Below, piece after piece: positions 56,398 through 64,000 of a stretch of 64,000 nucleotides of DNA (position 1 is the stretch's first letter; each line of letters begins with the position of its first letter). Source of the DNA: Silvibacterium dinghuense (GTDB taxonomy: Bacteria; Acidobacteriota; Terriglobia; Terriglobales; Acidobacteriaceae); the NCBI RefSeq assembly GCF_004123295.1, contig NZ_SDMK01000001.1, forward strand, positions 1,922,001 through 1,986,000. The letters run 5' to 3'. The notes under the pieces are model-generated. The model saw only the letters and a list, made by a program, of their open reading frames with translations, made no database searches and was not told where the DNA came from. The translations under genes and the position numbers were made by a program.

Positions 56398-57096
56398 TTA
56401 CAGCTGAGAGATGCAGAGGCAGACGCGGCCGGCGATGAGAGCGCGGGAGGCGAGATCGTCCTGCTCGAGAACTTCTACAGGCCAGGCCAGCGAGTAGGGG
56501 CGCAGGATCATGCGGCGGGGATCGGTGCTGATGTAGCGGAAGGCAAGAGACTGATCGAGACGGATGCCGTAGAGATTGGGCTGCGGCGGGCGATGCGGAG
56601 CAAGGGAGTTGTAGTGCCGGTCCAGAATCACGATGGCATTTGGCAGCAACACCGGAGACATGGGTGAGGCCTGATCCGGGCTGACGCGGACAGCGACGAA
56701 ACGATGCCAGTCGCGGCGGCTTACAGTACGACGCGGCCGGAGGCTTTCGAGCAGCCCGGCGGGAATCTCCACGATCTCGAGGGTCATGGAACGGGTAATG
56801 ACAGGCGAGCGCATGGCCGGCTCGTCCCGCACCAGCGGCACATGGTGAAAGAGAGAGACGTGGTGCGCAAGCGGCTCCTCGAGCGACGGAAGAAAATCGG
56901 CAACCGTAAGCGACTGGGAGGCGAGCACACGATCGAGAGCCGCCAGACTCAGGCGACGGCGACGGCGCAGAAAATTTGAGATGTGCGCGGGCTGCAGACC
57001 GGCCTGTGCGGCAAGCTGCGCTCCGGTAAGCAGTCCTCTCTGGATGCGGTTGGCAAGATGCAGGCGAAGGCGCTCGTGAAGCTGGGAGAAGTTCAT
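56398..57096 (-). CDS. Helix-turn-helix regulator, CI-like
   Basis: This protein of about 232 residues has an N-terminal HTH (about 5-65: LLTGAQLAAQAGLQPAHISNFLRRRRRLSLAALDRVL) of the XRE/lambda-repressor type. Its C-terminal domain of about 150 residues is strand-rich (VSRRDWHRFVAVRVSPDQASPMSPVLLPNAIVILDR) and recalls the S24/LexA-like domain of phage repressors. The catalytic Ser-Lys dyad cannot be confirmed. It is divergent from the zinc-ribbon and sigma-like genes and is probably the repressor of the adjacent phage-derived block. The start is taken at the ATG beginning MNFSQLHERL; a GTG nine codons upstream is possible. Confidence 0.7.
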   Translation of the reverse strand: MNFSQLHERLRLHLANRIQRGLLTGAQLAAQAGLQPAHISNFLRRRRRLSLAALDRVLASQSLTVADFLPSLEEPLAHHVSLFHHVPLVRDEPAMRSPVITRSMTLEIVEIPAGLLESLRPRRTVSRRDWHRFVAVRVSPDQASPMSPVLLPNAIVILDRHYNSLAPHRPPQPNLYGIRLDQSLAFRYISTDPRRMILRPYSLAWPVEVLEQDDLASRALIAGRVCLCISQL

Positions 57097-57574
57097 TCGA
57101 CGAGTTGTCTTTGAGCTATACACCGCGGCCGGGACATTTGCTCAGAGAAAACCTTCAGGGCAGATTTCACAGCAGATTGCGGGGTTACGGAAGGTTGATG
57201 TGAGGCCGCGTGCGCGCCACACGACATGCGCGTTGACGAGGAAAACGCTGCCCGATACATTCGGAAACACTTTGCCAGAAATCCGGCCGATGACTTTGCA
57301 CGGCGCAGAGGAGCGATCCTTTCTCTCTGCATCGCACAAGGAGCGGCTCTTTTGCCTCTGCGCAGGCCTTCCGCCGCGCAAGCGAGAGACCGCGCCCATT
57401 TTCCGGATTTGGAGACTCTCTTATGATCTGCGATTTTTCTTCCGAGACAAGGAATCCGGCATACGACCCGCCGCACAACATGAGTTTCGCTCCCATGTGC
57501 AGGCAGGCGATGCGGTCACAACGAGGAGATGGGAATGAAGCTGTCACCCACACCTCAGTTTTCCCTGGAGCCCG
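57097..57574. other. Control region of the phage-like block with overlapping micro-ORFs
   Basis: The region separates the CI-like gene and the rightward operon. It contains a promoter candidate (57233-57261) and three short, partly overlapping frames: 57290-57538 (82 aa), 57480-57578 (32 aa) and 57535-57609 (24 aa, preceded by GAGGAGATGGG). The second ends with ATGA at the zinc-ribbon start. None has recognisable homology. Confidence 0.4.
57233..57261 (+). promoter_or_regulatory. Sigma-70-type promoter candidate
   Basis: TTGACG (57233-57238), a 17-bp spacer and TACATT (57256-57261). It points into the zinc-ribbon/sigma-like operon. Confidence 0.45.
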
Positions 57575-57772
57575 ATGAATTACCTACGTTTGCACCTGAA
57601 GGTTTGTGAAGGATGCGGAGGATTGTGGTTTCGCGCAGAACAACAGCAGGAAATTTACTGCCATGGCTGCGCGCAACGGCTGAAAGCTTTTCCGAAACTA
57701 CGCACGCGACGGCGAGGCAGACCGTGCAAAGGGGAACAGCGGCAGACCGTGCGTGAAGGAGGTGCACAATGA
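57575..57772 (+). CDS. Small zinc-ribbon protein
   Basis: This 65-residue protein has two Cys pairs, CEGC (about 11-14) and CHGC (about 29-32), typical of a zinc ribbon, and a strongly basic C-terminus (RTRRRGRPCKGEQRQ). It could bind DNA or RNA. GGAG precedes the ATG, and the stop overlaps the start of the next gene (ATGA). It is part of a presumed early operon of the phage-like block. Confidence 0.7.
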   Translation: MNYLRLHLKVCEGCGGLWFRAEQQQEIYCHGCAQRLKAFPKLRTRRRGRPCKGEQRQTVREGGAQ

Positions 57773-58293
57773 GCGCAGCACCCGTACTGGCATACGTCAC
57801 AACAGGACGCAGCTTCTCCGCGGCAGAGGATTTCCGCACGCGGACGCAGGCCAGTCAACCCCAGACCTCAGGGCTGGCGTTCTATCGCAAACACACGGAA
57901 GACCTGTTGCGGAAGTACCTCCGCATCTCCATGGACATAGGGCGGCTGCCGTCGCTACTGAATCGCGGCGTGCTGCGCGGACGGGCAACGCACTGCCGCA
58001 TTCGCAACTTCGAGGATGCCGTGGTCTTTGTCATCGACGTGGAGCGCTGCCTGGGAAAGCTGGACTCCTCTGCGCAGGAGCTGGTGGCAAGGATCACGCT
58101 GCAGGAATACACCTATGCGGAAGCCGCGGAGCTGACGGGACAGAGCCTGCGGTCCATTGCACGGCACTATGGCGAAGCCGTAGACCGGGTAACGGCCTTG
58201 CTGCTGGATGCCGAACTGCTGAAGATCGAGCCGTGGGAGAGATGTCAAGCGGAAGACCGGCCGAGAAATGCAATAAGTATGCGGAAATACTGA
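57769..58293 (+). CDS. Sigma-70 region 4-like DNA-binding protein
   Basis: This 174-residue protein contains in its C-terminal third the pattern of sigma region 4: SAQELVARITLQEYTYAEAAELTGQSLRSIARHYGEAVDRVTALL. The N-terminal part (KHTEDLLRKYLRISMDIGRLPSLL) is helical and may correspond to a shortened region 2 or to a phage-specific domain. AAGGAGG lies six bases before the ATG, which overlaps the zinc-ribbon stop. It may control late genes (tail fibre, terminase) of the block, similar to small phage sigma-like activators. This role is inference. Confidence 0.7.
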   Translation: MSAAPVLAYVTTGRSFSAAEDFRTRTQASQPQTSGLAFYRKHTEDLLRKYLRISMDIGRLPSLLNRGVLRGRATHCRIRNFEDAVVFVIDVERCLGKLDSSAQELVARITLQEYTYAEAAELTGQSLRSIARHYGEAVDRVTALLLDAELLKIEPWERCQAEDRPRNAISMRKY

Positions 58294-58460: not shown

Positions 58461-61400
58461 ATGAACGTGACCAGAGAAGCGTTGCGACAGAAAGGACTGT
58501 GGCTGGGAATCTGCATGGTTCTGGCCATAGCAACGGCGGCAAAGGCGCAGGTGACCACGACGACGGTGCAGGGCACGATCTATCGCGCAGACGGCACAGC
58601 GGCGCAGGGTACGGTCATTGTGAACTGGCCGGCATTCTCAACAGCAGCCAACCAGGCTGTGGCCGCGGGCAGTACCACAGCAACGATCGGCGTGGATGGA
58701 TTCCTGACACTGAGTCTGGCAGCAAATGCCGGAGCGTATCCGGCAGGGACTTACTACACGGCGATCTACCACCTGGATGATGGGACGGTCAGCAAGGAGT
58801 ATTGGGTGGTGCCAGCAGCAACGACTGCGGCGATCTCCTCGATCCGCGCAGAGCTGGCGCCGGCCACCGTCGCCGTGCAGGCTGTCACGAAAGATTATGT
58901 GGATACGTCGATTGCGGCGATCACGGATGAGTATCTGCCGTTGAGCGGCGGCACGATGACAGGCGCGCTGCTGCTGAACGGCGATCCGTTCTCGGGAACA
59001 CAGGCGGCGACGAAGCACTATGCAGATACCCTGGCTGCGGCCATGGTGCCGCTGGCGGGCGCGACGATGAGCGGCACGCTGAGCCTGCCAAATGCGATCG
59101 CCAAGCTGCCGAGGGTAGATATACGGCATCCGGATTTCGGATCGGGATGTGCGAATGCGGCCGATCCGACGGGGACAGAGGATTCAACATGCGCCATTAC
59201 GGCGGCGGTGGCCTATGCGCAAAGCGTCTCGGCGAACGGGCAGACGCCGACGGTGTATTTTCCGGAGGGCACGTACAAGATCAGCAGCGCGCTGCGTCTG
59301 CCATGCGCTCTGCACTACACCGGCGACGGACCGAGCGCCACGACACTCGAGCAGACAGGCGATGCAGCCAACGCGATCACGGTCTACAACGGCGGCGCGC
59401 TGCTGGATGGATATCTTTGCGCGGGCAGCCTGCAGGATATGCAGATTACGACGAGCGGATCGCATCAGCATACGGCTGACCTGGTGGAGCTCGACAGCGC
59501 ACCGGGGTTCAAACTGAACCGGCTGCGGCTGTACAACTCCGGCGGCCGCGGGCTGCAATTAAATGGCACGAGCGAACGCATCGAGTCGAACGATCTGCAG
59601 ATCGATGCAGTGCGCTGGCCTCTGATCCTGACGACCAATACAAATGAGGATCACTTCTTCAAGACGAATATCGATGCCCCTGGTTTTGCCGCAGACAACT
59701 ACTGCTGGGGCAATAACTGCCCAAATGGTGTGTTTCCCGGCTATGCGTGGGCGACAGCGCAGACGCTGGTATCGGCAAGCGGGAATGGGACGACGCTGAC
59801 GGTAGTAGCGCAGGGCGGAACGGACAGTGGCAACACGAATGGAGCATCGCCGCTGGGAGTGGGACATTGGTTCGAACTAACGGGAATTGCCAACGTCACG
59901 GCGATGAACGGCTTCTGGCAGATCACAGGAGTGACGAACAATTCTCCGGCCAGCGGCGAATACACGCTGACAGCAACATCGACAGCAAGCGGGACGGCGA
60001 CGGTGACAGGCGCGAGCTTCCTGCCGGCAATCCTACCGGAGAACCATGCGGCGGTGTGGATGGCGGGCGTGAATGTGGGCTTCTATGGCGGATCGATCAA
60101 GCCACTGTATGCCGAAGGAGGCTTTCAGGTCTTCAACAGTGAGGCAAGCCAGATCACGAACTTTTATCTCGAAGGCTTTCCGGAGAATGGGCAGCCGCAC
60201 ATGAATGCAGGCATTACGGTGGGTGGTCTGCTGCCGCAGACAACGCTGGGAGGCTCTCTCGCTACAGGAGCTCTGGCGGTAGCAGCCAACGGCGCATGGT
60301 TTCCTGACTACTATAACGATCCGGCAGATGCACAGGCGGCCAGCTGCATCAGCTACGTGATGATTGCGCCAGAGGATTTCACATGGGGCAGCACCACGGC
60401 CTCAACCTATGTGAGCGGCATTACGCAGGGGCAATACGAGATTGCGTGCGTGAAGGGCTTTGCCGGAGACGGGAATCTCTATCTCGCGACACGCCAGGTA
60501 AGCGCGTACGGTTTGTATACGACGACCGCCCCGGCGGCCATTGTGTGGCCTGCGGGCTCGCTGGTGGAGATGATCAGCAGCTCCACGAGCTATGGCAACG
60601 GACTGCTGGTGAGCGCGACGCACATCAATGCCATCGATGCGCCGGGCACGAACTGGGCGGCGGACTGCAATGACAGCGGGGCGCTGACATGTGCCGACCT
60701 GATTGCAGGCGTGATTCCCGATAGCGTGGGAGTCGCCATCCCAGGAAATACGGGAGCGAGCGGACGCACGGCACAGCTTTCACTCCTCAACGATTCGCTC
60801 TATTCGGGGTCCGCGGAGATGTATGGGCAGGGCTATCTGAAGGTCCACAGCAGCGCGCAGGTGACGGTGCTCGGTGCGGGAGCAGCGGCTTCGACAACAG
60901 GCGAAACAAGCGAGGTAGCGAACGGTCAGTTTCTGAACGGCGCGGGCTTGCCGGTGGTGATGGCCGTAGCGTATCCGACAGGGAAATCGGCATGGGTCTC
61001 CTATATAAATCCGGCCGCAGGCATTATGGCGAACTCCAACACCGGACCGTTCTTCGAGAGCATGGTGAATGGGTCCTCGGGACAGGCTGTGAACCTGGGA
61101 GCGAATCCGGGCGGAAGCTCTGCGCTTGGTCATCAGTTTGCGACCTCGAGCTGCTGGTATGACGTCGGACCGTCCGCGAGCTCGACACATGCGGAGAACC
61201 GCTTCTGCATGAAGGGTGGTCCGGGGCTTACGGGATCGGCGGCGGGCTGGGAGTACGACGTGTGGAGCGGCTCAGCATGGGTGGGAGCCTTTAGCCTGGC
61301 GGCGCAGGGTTCGACAGCGAATGCAACCGTAAGCGGTGCGGAAGAGGTGCAGGGCGCGCTGAATGCAGCGACGATCAATGGAGAGATCACGGTCGACGGT

Positions 61401-62984
61401 GTGACCTATGCCAGCTTGAACGCAGCATGGAGCGCGGCGGTGAGCGCAGCGACGGCGAGCGGACAGAACCAGACAGTGCGGCTGGGAGCAGGAAGCTTTG
61501 CTGTATCGGCAACGCTGAATGAGCCAACGAACGGGGCGTGCGTAAACCTGATCGGCTCGGGCGGAACGACGGTGAACGCAGGCAGCTCGGCGGCAACCAC
61601 GCTGACGGTACCTGCGAGCCTGGGCGGAGATGTCTTCTATCTCGGCAACACAGCCCAGGCGCAGGGCTGCAGCTTCAAGGATTTTGTGATTCTGGCCGCA
61701 ACCAATGCGACACACGGCTTCGAGATGCAGTGGTTCCGCGGGCTGTTGATCGATAACGTGACGGTGAACGATACGACCGCCGAGGGTGTGCTGCTGGGCG
61801 AGGAGTCGACGACCGCTGGGCACCAGGCGAACTTCCTGCTGCGGAATGTGACGGTGAGCTACAACGCTTCGCTGTTCACGCCGGCGAGCCGGCCTGCGTA
61901 TGGGGTGCATATCCAGAAGACTGCGATAGACAGCCACCTGGATGACATTACGGTGCGCAATGCGCTGACGGCGAGCGTCTACAACGAAGGCACAGGCAAC
62001 ACGGGGTATCTGATTCACGGCTTCGGCTATCCCTATACGTGTACGACGGCGCCGTGCTCGAATACGGCGACATCGAGCTCGGCTGCGAATGCCTCGTATG
62101 CGACGAACTATGTGATCGAAGATATAGGCGGCGGGGGAAGTATCTGGACAGATACGTACCTAGATAGCCCGGCGATTGCCGGGTTTTATATTGGCGCGGA
62201 TGGGGTTACGGCGCATGGCGGGCACATCCAATGGCCGGATCTGACGAGCTTTCCGGCGGCCAACCTGGCATATGTAGCAGACGGAGTTACAAATAATCTG
62301 ATGCTGGGAAATATCGACTGCCTGGAGATGAACACGGCGGTGAACTGGATCACGTATGCGGGCACGTCGGGCAATCCTCCGACCTTCAGCACGGTGCATG
62401 GGCTGACGGGCTGCGGCAATTATGTACAGGCACTGAATCCGGAAGAGGTGACGGGGTTCTCGAGCGGCGGCGCGAATATCAACGATCCCTCGGGAGCGGT
62501 ACCGCGGGTCTGGTCGACGCCGATTGCGGCGGCTTCGAGTTATCCGGCCTATGTGGCTCAGCTTTATACGGGCTACGAAGGCGATGTGATCCAGGGACAC
62601 TTTTCCGGGGTGAGTCCGTTTTTCAACGTGACATACCAGGGCACGATCAAATCGAATGGCGGCATTGCGCTGGGCACAGTGCTGAATACCGCATCGACGC
62701 TGACCCTGACGAATGCGAACAAGAATGTGATTGCGAATGCGGTGAGCGGGGCACAGACGATCACGCTGCCGAGCTGCTACACGGCGTGGCCGGACAAGGC
62801 ATCGCCGACGGGGCTGGAGTTCACAATCATCAAGTCGGATACTTCAGCAAATGCGGTGACCCTAGCGACGGTGAGTTCGCAGAACATCAACTATGCCGGA
62901 ACTTCAGCGACGACGCTGGCGATCTCTGCGGCGGGAAAGCGGACGCTGATCTGCGGGCCGGATTACAACTGGTACGCCTTCTAG
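58461..62984 (+). CDS. Tail-fibre-like beta-helix protein with signal peptide
   Basis: This protein of about 1507 residues begins with a clear Sec signal peptide (hydrophobic core about 12-26, ending TAAKAQ). A short beta domain follows (VQGTIYRADGTAAQG). Next come two phage tail-fibre repeats of the LPLSGGTMTGALLL...ATKHYAD kind (about 155-205). Two pectate-lyase-like beta-helix regions lie at about 215-560 (ITAAVAYAQSVSANGQTPTVYFPEGTYKISSAL) and about 970-1250 (SLNAAWSAAVSAATASGQNQTVRLGAGSFAV). The C-terminal domain (TLTLTNANKNVIANAVSGAQTITLPS) resembles fibre tips. A signal peptide is not expected in a virion protein assembled in the cytoplasm, so this could be a domesticated, exported adhesin or glycan-binding protein. 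ATG 58461 follows GGAAGAG; the frame upstream overlaps the sigma-like gene and is not used. Confidence 0.8.
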   Translation: MNVTREALRQKGLWLGICMVLAIATAAKAQVTTTTVQGTIYRADGTAAQGTVIVNWPAFSTAANQAVAAGSTTATIGVDGFLTLSLAANAGAYPAGTYYTAIYHLDDGTVSKEYWVVPAATTAAISSIRAELAPATVAVQAVTKDYVDTSIAAITDEYLPLSGGTMTGALLLNGDPFSGTQAATKHYADTLAAAMVPLAGATMSGTLSLPNAIAKLPRVDIRHPDFGSGCANAADPTGTEDSTCAITAAVAYAQSVSANGQTPTVYFPEGTYKISSALRLPCALHYTGDGPSATTLEQTGDAANAITVYNGGALLDGYLCAGSLQDMQITTSGSHQHTADLVELDSAPGFKLNRLRLYNSGGRGLQLNGTSERIESNDLQIDAVRWPLILTTNTNEDHFFKTNIDAPGFAADNYCWGNNCPNGVFPGYAWATAQTLVSASGNGTTLTVVAQGGTDSGNTNGASPLGVGHWFELTGIANVTAMNGFWQITGVTNNSPASGEYTLTATSTASGTATVTGASFLPAILPENHAAVWMAGVNVGFYGGSIKPLYAEGGFQVFNSEASQITNFYLEGFPENGQPHMNAGITVGGLLPQTTLGGSLATGALAVAANGAWFPDYYNDPADAQAASCISYVMIAPEDFTWGSTTASTYVSGITQGQYEIACVKGFAGDGNLYLATRQVSAYGLYTTTAPAAIVWPAGSLVEMISSSTSYGNGLLVSATHINAIDAPGTNWAADCNDSGALTCADLIAGVIPDSVGVAIPGNTGASGRTAQLSLLNDSLYSGSAEMYGQGYLKVHSSAQVTVLGAGAAASTTGETSEVANGQFLNGAGLPVVMAVAYPTGKSAWVSYINPAAGIMANSNTGPFFESMVNGSSGQAVNLGANPGGSSALGHQFATSSCWYDVGPSASSTHAENRFCMKGGPGLTGSAAGWEYDVWSGSAWVGAFSLAAQGSTANATVSGAEEVQGALNAATINGEITVDGVTYASLNAAWSAAVSAATASGQNQTVRLGAGSFAVSATLNEPTNGACVNLIGSGGTTVNAGSSAATTLTVPASLGGDVFYLGNTAQAQGCSFKDFVILAATNATHGFEMQWFRGLLIDNVTVNDTTAEGVLLGEESTTAGHQANFLLRNVTVSYNASLFTPASRPAYGVHIQKTAIDSHLDDITVRNALTASVYNEGTGNTGYLIHGFGYPYTCTTAPCSNTATSSSAANASYATNYVIEDIGGGGSIWTDTYLDSPAIAGFYIGADGVTAHGGHIQWPDLTSFPAANLAYVADGVTNNLMLGNIDCLEMNTAVNWITYAGTSGNPPTFSTVHGLTGCGNYVQALNPEEVTGFSSGGANINDPSGAVPRVWSTPIAAASSYPAYVAQLYTGYEGDVIQGHFSGVSPFFNVTYQGTIKSNGGIALGTVLNTASTLTLTNANKNVIANAVSGAQTITLPSCYTAWPDKASPTGLEFTIIKSDTSANAVTLATVSSQNINYAGTSATTLAISAAGKRTLICGPDYNWYAF

Positions 62985-63298: not shown

Positions 63299-64000
63299 AT
63301 GCATTCTGAATGCGAGATTGCTGCGGCGATTGCGGGAGCGGAAAGGCAGGAACTGGATTCGATCCTGCTTTTGGGCCAGAGGCTGGAGTGGAACGACGGG
63401 AGCGAAAGGCTGGCGGTATTGCTGGCTCGGTCGTGGCTGAGGATTCGTGACCGCGAGGGGCAGCGGATTCCGCTGGTGCCGAACCGGGCGCAGCAGCTAT
63501 ATGAAGAGCGGCGCGGGCAGCGGAACATTGTGCTGAAGGCACGGCAGATGGGAGTAAGCACCTGGATCACGGGGCGCTTCTTTCTGAAGACGATCCTGGT
63601 GCCAGGGACGCTGACGGTGCAGGTGGCGCACACGCAGGAGGCGGCGGAGGCGCTGTTCCGGATGGTGCACCGGTTTGTCGAATCGCTGCCGAAGGAGCTG
63701 CGGGCGACGATGCGGACGTCGAAGTCGAATGTGCGGCAGATCGGCTTTGCGTTGCTGGACAGCGAGTACCGGGTGGAGAGTGCCTCGGACGGGAATGCAG
63801 GGCGCGGACTGACGATGACGAATCTGCATGCCTCGGAGGTGGCGCGGTGGCCGGGCGATGCGGGGGAGACGCTGCAGGGATTGCGGGCGGCTCTGGCGCC
63901 GAGTGGAGAGTTGGCGCTGGAGTCGACACCGATGGGTGCGGGTGGGTGCTTCTGGAACGAGTGGCAAGAGGCGGAGCCGGGTGGCACGGTTCGGCACTTC
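63299..64000 (+). CDS. Phage terminase large subunit, 5' part (runs off the window)
   Basis: The frame is open from upstream of 63257 to the window end without a stop; 234 codons are seen from ATG 63299. The Walker A-like motif is LKARQMGVST (about 83-92), in the position usual for large-terminase ATPases (after YEERRGQRNIV). It is followed by QVAHTQEAAEALFR and a segment SASDGNAGRGLTMTNLHASEVARW, typical of terminase/portal-linked packaging ATPases of this group, and STPMGAGGCFWNEW. The protein would pump DNA into proheads. TTG at 63257 is an alternative start. Its presence next to the tail-fibre-like gene supports a phage origin for the block. Confidence 0.8.
   Translation, partial: MHSECEIAAAIAGAERQELDSILLLGQRLEWNDGSERLAVLLARSWLRIRDREGQRIPLVPNRAQQLYEERRGQRNIVLKARQMGVSTWITGRFFLKTILVPGTLTVQVAHTQEAAEALFRMVHRFVESLPKELRATMRTSKSNVRQIGFALLDSEYRVESASDGNAGRGLTMTNLHASEVARWPGDAGETLQGLRAALAPSGELALESTPMGAGGCFWNEWQEAEPGGTVRHF

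Follow-up and report, generated by a model that had tools for sequence, protein, structure and literature searches.

A stretch of 64,000 nucleotides from Silvibacterium dinghuense, a member of the Acidobacteriaceae (bases 1,922,001-1,986,000 of contig NZ_SDMK01000001.1, in a 5.1-Mb genome; hereafter termed the window), carries near its end an open reading frame (ORF) for a large tail-fibre-like protein; this gene lies at the left end of a phage-derived cluster that spans approximately 19 kb, extends past the window, and includes genes for a terminase, a portal, a capsid protein of modelled HK97 fold and an adaptor. We consider it moderately probable that this cluster is a domesticated, mostly vertically inherited element resembling the gene transfer agents (GTAs), and that its virion-type fibre is exported, oxidised, and then docked on particles. 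The fold of the fibre's N-terminal domain, its signal peptide, its even cysteine counts, and the conservation and selection of the cluster are the components of that reading that are supported by sequence; particle formation, docking, release by lysis and DNA transfer are those that would follow by inference. In the textbook view, tail fibres fold and join the particle in the cytoplasm, and a signal located directly before a virion-attachment domain, family-wide and accompanied by paired cysteines, suggests that some fibres are exported. If so, particle assembly would span two cellular compartments, and would gain access to receptor binders that are stabilised by disulfides.

The fibre and its signal peptide

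The fibre ORF (58461-62984, plus strand) encodes 1507 residues without an internal stop, and its predicted parts are arranged as follows.

58461..58547, plus strand: signal peptide, residues 1-29, cleavage at AKA|QV (from sequence and a model helix at residues 5-25)
58554..58856, plus strand: immunoglobulin-like domain of virion-anchor type (the 'clip'), residues 32-132 (from the AlphaFold2 model and VIA-align)
58860..59096, plus strand: tail-fibre repeats LSGGTMTGAL / ATKHYAD, residues 134-212 (from sequence)
59160..59384, plus strand: start of a pectate-lyase-like beta-helix, residues 234-308 (PF12708, E 1.2e-9)
59385..62984, plus strand: variable fibre body and C-terminus (open frames in relatives reach 3131 residues)

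A preliminary description of this DNA had noted a protein of this length that combines phage tail-fibre repeats and two beta-helix regions with a Sec signal peptide. That observation as a whole was confirmed: both repeat motifs are present, the N-terminus and its modelled helix fit a signal, and one beta-helix region is supported by the PF12708 match, which was the sole match to the fibre in Pfam. Searches of PHROGs with the fibre gave none, and a sequence search of the PDB gave nothing clear; among 50,697 phage records, 13 were matched, by the fibre-repeat part alone. Within the Acidobacteriaceae, the protein was matched in 107 of 150 genomes, mainly through its N-terminal part, and by sequence its conservation in the family is greater than chance would give.

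The N-terminus of the fibre, MNVTREALRQKGLWLGICMVLAIATAAKA|QV, displays the regions of a Sec-type signal peptide with a predicted cut after residue 29, and the AlphaFold2 model places a helix at residues 5-25, followed by a beta-sandwich. The signal was called with a crude rule (not SignalP) that takes the best of several start codons, and that is evidently lenient, since 12 of the 39 proteins of the window pass it as well; it was passed by 44 of 47 distinct, divergent fibre N-termini, and by 0 of the 15 other cluster proteins in this genome. Across divergent relatives the first 20-40 residues vary; what is retained ahead of a conserved TTTVQG is a basic start, then a hydrophobic stretch, and a small-x-small end. 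Homologues of phage type, found on IMG/VR contigs, place a start codon directly at the clip (M-TTIQDT...) with no signal in 21 of 21 cases, a set that was collected with a phage-only clip alignment and hence together with relatives that start with methionine; four of the 21 possess an additional in-frame start 15-45 codons upstream, and the stretches so added are not signal peptides by eye. That the fibre carries an export signal is well supported by inference from these comparisons, and the absence of a signal, which the preliminary description had named as grounds for refutation, is not what the sequence shows. A dual start, which would generate isoforms with and without the signal, was also considered, and found no support.

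One other lineage, represented by L223 and L259 (66% identical), was found to combine a signal with a clip. L223 is a contig of 60.8 kb with tail genes that appear siphophage-like by eye; four consecutive genes there, that of the fibre first, pass the signal rule, and beyond the likely cut their products have 18, 4, 8 and 17 cysteines; a neighbouring tail protein of this phage, used as a query, returned three loci.

A modelled virion-attachment domain at the predicted mature N-terminus

The clip starts just past the predicted cleavage site. Its model, built from 21 relatives (mean pLDDT 67), comprises a confident beta-sandwich at approximately residues 33-125, with pLDDT of about 85-94 over most of that span, and is poor after residue 130. 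Comparison with VIA-align ranked the neck fibre gp5 of cyanophage A-1(L) first (8keg; Z 11.5 over 93 residues, 2.5 A), followed by the Bxb1 tail tip (9d93, Z 10.6), the A-1(L) tail fibre (8kec, Z 10.4), the Ur-lambda tail tip (9e7m, Z 10.0) and the XM1 neck (7kjk, Z 9.4), and all five of these matches start at chain residue 1 or 2. Teneurin came next (8.7), and the rest, including another phage collar, fell below 8; middling Z scores are common for such sandwiches, and the weight rests on the ranking and on the terminal position. A search of BFVD listed 50 rows, 20 of them with a functional name, and 13 of those 20 are tail fibre, tail or minor tail proteins.

The five phage neck and tail anchors (8keg, 8kec, 9d93, 9e7m and 7kjk) share with the clip the same fold over 83-93 residues, at the mature N-terminus; they differ in that the match there starts at chain residue 1 or 2, whereas a signal of 29 residues precedes the domain here, and sequence identity is only 12-15%. 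No match to the clip was found among the 50,697 phage records. By its modelled fold, the N-terminal domain of the fibre is of the virion-attachment type, and the placement of the signal exactly before it suggests that this component of the particle is produced outside the cell interior.

Even cysteine counts

Exported proteins with disulfide bonds usually have even numbers of cysteines. The mature fibre of this genome has 20, and in a first set of complete, distinct fibres even counts were found in 37 of 38, and among 14 of the 15 different counts; the naive probability of this first result (1.4e-10) ignores kinship, the sequences being related and so not independent. A larger set, which adds later loci that include capsid-less and stand-alone copies, gave even counts in 48 of 53 complete, distinct mature fibres (range 2 to 42 cysteines), and among 16 of the 20 different counts. 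The odd ones are two stand-alone proteins (L281 and L284), a deletion remnant (L283), a fibre on a 6.5-kb contig with masked bases (L288), and one from a full cluster (L046). Even counts in other proteins of the cluster, used as controls, came to 33 of 57 for the hub, 18 of 40 for the tube, 42 of 80 for HipA, 52 of 82 for DUF3037, and 4 of 7 for the terminase large subunit (terL); complete phage-type fibres that have no signal were even in one of three cases. Read from sequence, the even counts of the fibres qualify as a sign of an oxidising compartment.

The head-gene cluster

Past the window, the terminase is followed by a HipA-like kinase, a DUF3037 protein, the portal (PF04860, E 1.3e-54), a protease-like and a scaffold-like gene, a capsid protein of 322 residues and an adaptor (phrog_442), in that order; two small genes, a tube-like gene and a hub-like gene of 772 residues come next, and then host genes. 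Protease, scaffold, tube and hub are names that we presume from position or sequence resemblance only. Capsid and portal genes, whose presence after the fibre and terminase the preliminary description had left to be checked, are both located just beyond the end of the window. The ATPase and nuclease motifs of the terminase are intact in 20 of 20 sequences.

Sequence comparison found no relative of the capsid protein in PHROGs, in Pfam, in the PDB or among the 50,697 phage records; profiles of the capsid, tube and hub, searched against PDB sequences, gave nothing clear. Its AlphaFold2 model is poor (pLDDT 51); the first 45 rows of a Foldseek search were capsid, capsid-vertex or encapsulin entries, and VIA-align returned Z scores of up to 13.5, the highest being to encapsulins. 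On this modelled structure the protein is assigned the HK97 fold, and a phage head is the natural reading because portal and terminase genes adjoin the capsid gene.

In most of the clusters read, the fibre gene adjoins terL, and the HipA-like/DUF3037 pair (64988-66731 in window numbering; L004:11988-13731), which has a weak match to the candidate defence pair PDC-M66A/B, lies between terminase and portal. The capsid block is located upstream of the fibre in G034, G098 and several loci of Edaphobacter or Granulicella type. Two host genes that resemble purE and purK, judged by position or sequence, follow in 22 of the 36 named loci that have full flanks. Downstream of the hub, 22 of 36 loci encode u0, a small protein that has a hydrophobic stretch at its C-terminal end and that, by its sequence, may be a holin.

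Distribution, inheritance and selection

The capsid gene is present exactly once in each of 88 carriers among the 150 family genomes, at 70-91% identity to the gene of this genome and without internal stops. It gave 25 matches among 297 genomes of the phylum, all of them in the Acidobacteriaceae, and a search across named genomes yielded 206 relatives; the 80 of these that were listed are, by title, all of Acidobacteria type. Portal and capsid were found together in 19 of 20 relatives examined. A search of eight genomes for integrases, which covered PF00589 only and neither serine integrases nor transposases, found 6-45 in each. In all eight, the 25 kb to either side of the cluster are free of them; the one that comes closest, approximately 25 kb away in G119, carries a stop codon.

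Distances for terminase plus portal follow those for rpoB in 18 genomes (r 0.835, permutation p 0.0002), with r of 0.667 for the clip region of the fibre and of 0.635 for the capsid, which was compared in 15 of the 18, since in the other three the retrieved sequence ended within the gene; rpoB was taken by tblastn, and G101 and G131 were excluded, their rpoB being split or not found. Nine of 15 tree splits are common to the cluster and rpoB, including all seven rpoB splits with support of at least 0.95. Nei-Gojobori ratios of nonsynonymous to synonymous substitution (dN/dS) in three genus-level pairs ranged from 0.018 to 0.233 in 34 finite estimates, with seven further estimates saturated and many dS values above 1; the adjacent host gene oxred gave 0.106 and 0.203, its third pair being saturated. 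The cluster is therefore not regarded as an ordinary prophage, since it is single-copy, restricted to the family, under purifying selection, and has no PF00589 integrase within 25 kb in any of the eight genomes.

Of the 150 genomes, 84 possess both a fibre match and the capsid gene, 23 a fibre match only, four the capsid only, and 39 neither, which places a fibre match in 84 of 88 capsid-bearing genomes. A fibre match is here any match to this fibre, and in G043, for example, the listed matches cover the body only. Among 83 genomes tabulated with both, 57 have them on one contig, in every case within 23.5 kb, and 26 on different contigs; one of these 26, G143, is cut by contig ends. Among the genomes with a fibre match only, G091 has its terminase and portal at a contig end, and in G048 the fibre match is on a 6.5-kb contig. 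Ahead of its terminase, the complete genome G032 encodes a tandem pair of fibres, each with a signal. A profile of the N-terminal part matched 33 of the 297 phylum genomes, of which 26 are Acidobacteriaceae; two of the remaining matches are short stand-alone proteins in another family of the class, and five are weak or repeat-only.

A related capsid gene was also found in 27 IMG/VR contigs. The jumbo-phage-like IMG/VR contigs L093, L095 and L096 (74-214 kb) carry a copy of the capsid gene at 70% identity, and in L093 and L096 no other cluster homologue lies within 10 kb of it.

Predicted signal peptides in tail-region proteins of isolated phages

Isolated phages of the family carry comparable genes. 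In Tunturi 1 and 2, which are podoviruses, ORF12 (annotated as hypothetical), ORF13 (tail fibre or hypothetical), ORF14 (tail spike or pectin lyase) and ORF17 (virion structural protein) all pass the signal rule, with 20, 10, 20, and 32 or 34 cysteines, respectively, after a cleavage placed by eye; these and the other Tunturi tail-region proteins are assigned by annotation, which does not prove presence in the virion. In the siphovirus Tunturi 4, ORF113 and ORF114 pass the rule, with 8 and 20 mature cysteines, and ORF114 is 48.6% identical to ORF17 over 46% of it. Of 21 tail-region ORFs checked within the first 50 kb of each of Tunturi 3, 4 and 5, none passes; for Tunturi 3 and 5, the test covered these ORFs and one more rather than whole genomes.

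What Tunturi 1, 2 and 4 share with the cluster's fibre is the possession of large genes in the tail region whose products have predicted signal peptides and, once mature, even numbers of cysteines; unlike the cluster, they are plaque-forming viruses, as described in their report (PMC11924767), and the cluster's capsid and clip are unmatched in the phage collection. The main text of that report contains neither 'signal peptide' nor 'mass spectrometry'. Because these three phages form plaques, the question can be addressed on purified virions.

The preliminary description had started from the premise that virion fibres need no export, and the Tunturi tail-region genes with signal peptides put that premise in doubt. 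Whether there is a class of virion fibres that are made by secretion, disulfide-bonded in the periplasm and fitted outside the cytoplasm, both in phages and in a family-wide, domesticated particle cluster of Acidobacteriota, we regard as evenly balanced.

A proposed route of assembly, and the evidence against it

If the cluster is a GTA-like element with an exported fibre, its control would fall to the repressor-like regulator and to the sigma-like protein. The fibre would pass through Sec and have its signal cut off, such that the clip would become the mature N-terminus, and its body would fold with disulfides in the oxidising periplasm. Heads would assemble and fill with DNA in the cytoplasm and, once the inner membrane was breached, would meet the periplasmic fibres and carry them as a receptor- or polysaccharide-binding part, with the variable fibre body setting the binding target of the particle.

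A number of observations weigh against this reading. The cluster is known here from genes alone, and particles, packaged DNA and docking are what the reading supposes. The holin-like u0 is absent near this genome's cluster, and u0 itself has no family match; the cluster has no recognised tape measure, and the genome gave no match to PF10145, the one tape-measure family searched; and no endolysin was recognised in the cluster. Four cluster splits with support of 0.95-1.0 do not occur in the rpoB tree, whose support there is 0.90 or less, so that some exchange between lineages is possible.

Several fibres that occur without heads also weigh against it, some of them found among the 8 of 23 fibre-only genomes that were inspected. 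G028 retains a signal-bearing fibre with no head gene in the 20 kb inspected and no capsid gene; G117 retains fibre, tube and hub, lacks the genes from the portal to g71651, the capsid gene included, and has a terminase piece of 642 bases left; G069 retains a short fibre without a capsid gene; and in G082 (L282:12272-15097), which has no capsid gene either, an in-frame fusion joins the signal and clip of the fibre to a hub-like part, apparently through deletion of the head block. In G015 and G078, stand-alone signal-plus-clip proteins lie beside genes that we presume, from position or sequence resemblance, to be involved in polysaccharide export, with no phage genes near, and G412 and G317 carry short stand-alone proteins of the same composition. 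These fibres without a capsid, together with the stand-alone cases, leave room for a role that is free of particles. The evidence from the isolated phages has points against it too: a small ORF of Tunturi 2, ORF16, passes the signal rule with one mature cysteine, an ORF annotated as an acetyltransferase passes it as well (6 of 26 ORFs overall), and the ORF111 tail fibre of Tunturi 4 fails it.

Details of stand-alone proteins were noted at four loci. Those at L281:6273-9407 and L284:5680-9993, beside polysaccharide-export-like genes, have five cysteines each. At L250 and L251, in another family of the same class, signal-plus-clip proteins of approximately 430 residues lie beside ORFs that by eye are Flp-pilin-like, and PF04860 finds no portal in either genome.

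Alternative explanations

An alternative that we judge unlikely, but to be taken seriously, is that the fibre is now a host surface protein (an adhesin, or a protein that binds or degrades polysaccharide) that joins no particle. The signal peptide and even cysteine counts would suit it, as would the retention of a fibre in four genomes that have no capsid gene (G028, G117, G082 and G069), the neighbourhood of polysaccharide-export-like genes in G015 and G078, and the existence of a host paralogue with the body of the fibre, no clip, and a signal-like N-terminus. Weighing against it are the retention across genera of the clip and of a place beside terL, the fibre match in 84 of 88 capsid-bearing genomes, and purifying selection that acts likewise on the head genes. 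The preliminary description had proposed either a phage-derived surface protein used by the host or an unusual route of release, with an ordinary prophage as the contrary case; a phage fibre with an export signal, in a setting that is not an ordinary prophage, is what stood of it, and the host-surface reading is possible and not the best for this copy, because the mature N-terminus has a virion-anchor fold and the gene lies among conserved head genes.

A second explanation, in which the cluster represents a family of prophages that still move and prefer one site, and whose virion fibre can dispense with its signal, appears improbable. Eichorst et al. (2018; PMC5900883) printed members of it among predicted active prophages, in 'Cluster 153', a set of six acidobacterial intervals that was read as a potentially new viral group. 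Two of the six coincide with loci described here, namely T. roseus NC_018014 150-180 kb (L169) and KBS 89 scaffold00005 60-90 kb (L173), and the part of that account that was available makes no mention of a family-wide single copy, of domestication or of a signal peptide. The 27 IMG/VR contigs and the four well-supported splits that conflict with rpoB favour mobility as well. Set against it are the lack of a PF00589 integrase within 25 kb in eight of eight genomes (the nearest, in G119, having a stop codon), the single capsid copy in each of 88 carriers, the agreement with rpoB, and the absence of a capsid relative in 50,697 phage records.

It is very doubtful that the fibre remains displayed on sibling cells, where its clip would offer particles a docking site: such a role would account for an export signal and a clip on one protein, but no outer-membrane anchor was recognised (no specific search having been made), and so variable a body suits a receptor-binding protein pointing away from a particle. 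Least probable of all is a start-site error, with translation beginning at the clip, which the leniency of the signal rule would permit, and which is opposed by the lack of a conserved start at the clip (V31 is GTG in 12 of 74, and V36 in 34 of 74), by signal features that persist while the sequence diverges, and by the even cysteine counts.

Relation to known gene transfer agents

The GTAs named in a review (PMC11841831) are those of alphaproteobacteria, Bartonella, Brachyspira, Desulfovibrio and Methanococcus. RcGTA, the Bartonella GTA, VSH-1 and others, as described there, have in common with the cluster a conserved set of head genes, no mobility genes seen close by, and purifying selection, and their mostly vertical inheritance may be shared by the cluster as well; the cluster differs in being known from genes alone, in its unrecognised tape measure, its probably exported fibre, and its internal HipA-like/DUF3037 pair. 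Searches of open-licence papers turned up neither a report of family-wide domestication nor one of an exported fibre, and the parts available of PMC12210884, PMC12309495, PMC3556154 and PMC3338817 describe no such fibre. Judged from its genes, the cluster would be the first candidate GTA in Acidobacteriota known to us, none having been found in that literature.

Flanking genes and minor observations

The remaining features of the window that concern the cluster are listed below.

56398..57123, minus strand: helix-turn-helix (Cro/CI-like) regulator at the cluster edge (weak Pfam and PHROG helix-turn-helix matches)
57575..57772, plus strand: zinc-ribbon-like small protein (Pfam matches all below cut-off)
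57769..58293, plus strand: sigma-70 region-4-like regulator (PF08281, 24.2 bits against a cut-off of 25.7; phrog_1740)
63299..64000, plus strand: terminase large subunit (terL), running to 64813 in window numbering, outside the window (phrog_2, E 7e-20)

Of the flanking genes that the preliminary description had named, the terminase was borne out, the regulator has weak matches, and the sigma-like and zinc-ribbon genes fall below their cut-offs. A homologue of the regulator adjoins the cluster in many relatives, and an ORF similar to the zinc-ribbon-like gene is found in G082, G069 and G143.

The fibre body varies in its modules; that of G034 has a GDSL-like domain. A host protein of 900 residues (G000:C1:1638358-1641060; L007) shares parts of the fibre body at 44-55% identity, without the clip, and has a signal-like N-terminus of its own. 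In one branch, a phosphatase-like ORF of approximately 150 residues (MDITWVTDRIAVGGG..., a name given by eye) precedes the fibre; it is listed for L280-L283, L285, L286, L288 and L289, and was not seen in L281. Tunturi_3 possesses an ORF annotated as a dual specificity phosphatase.

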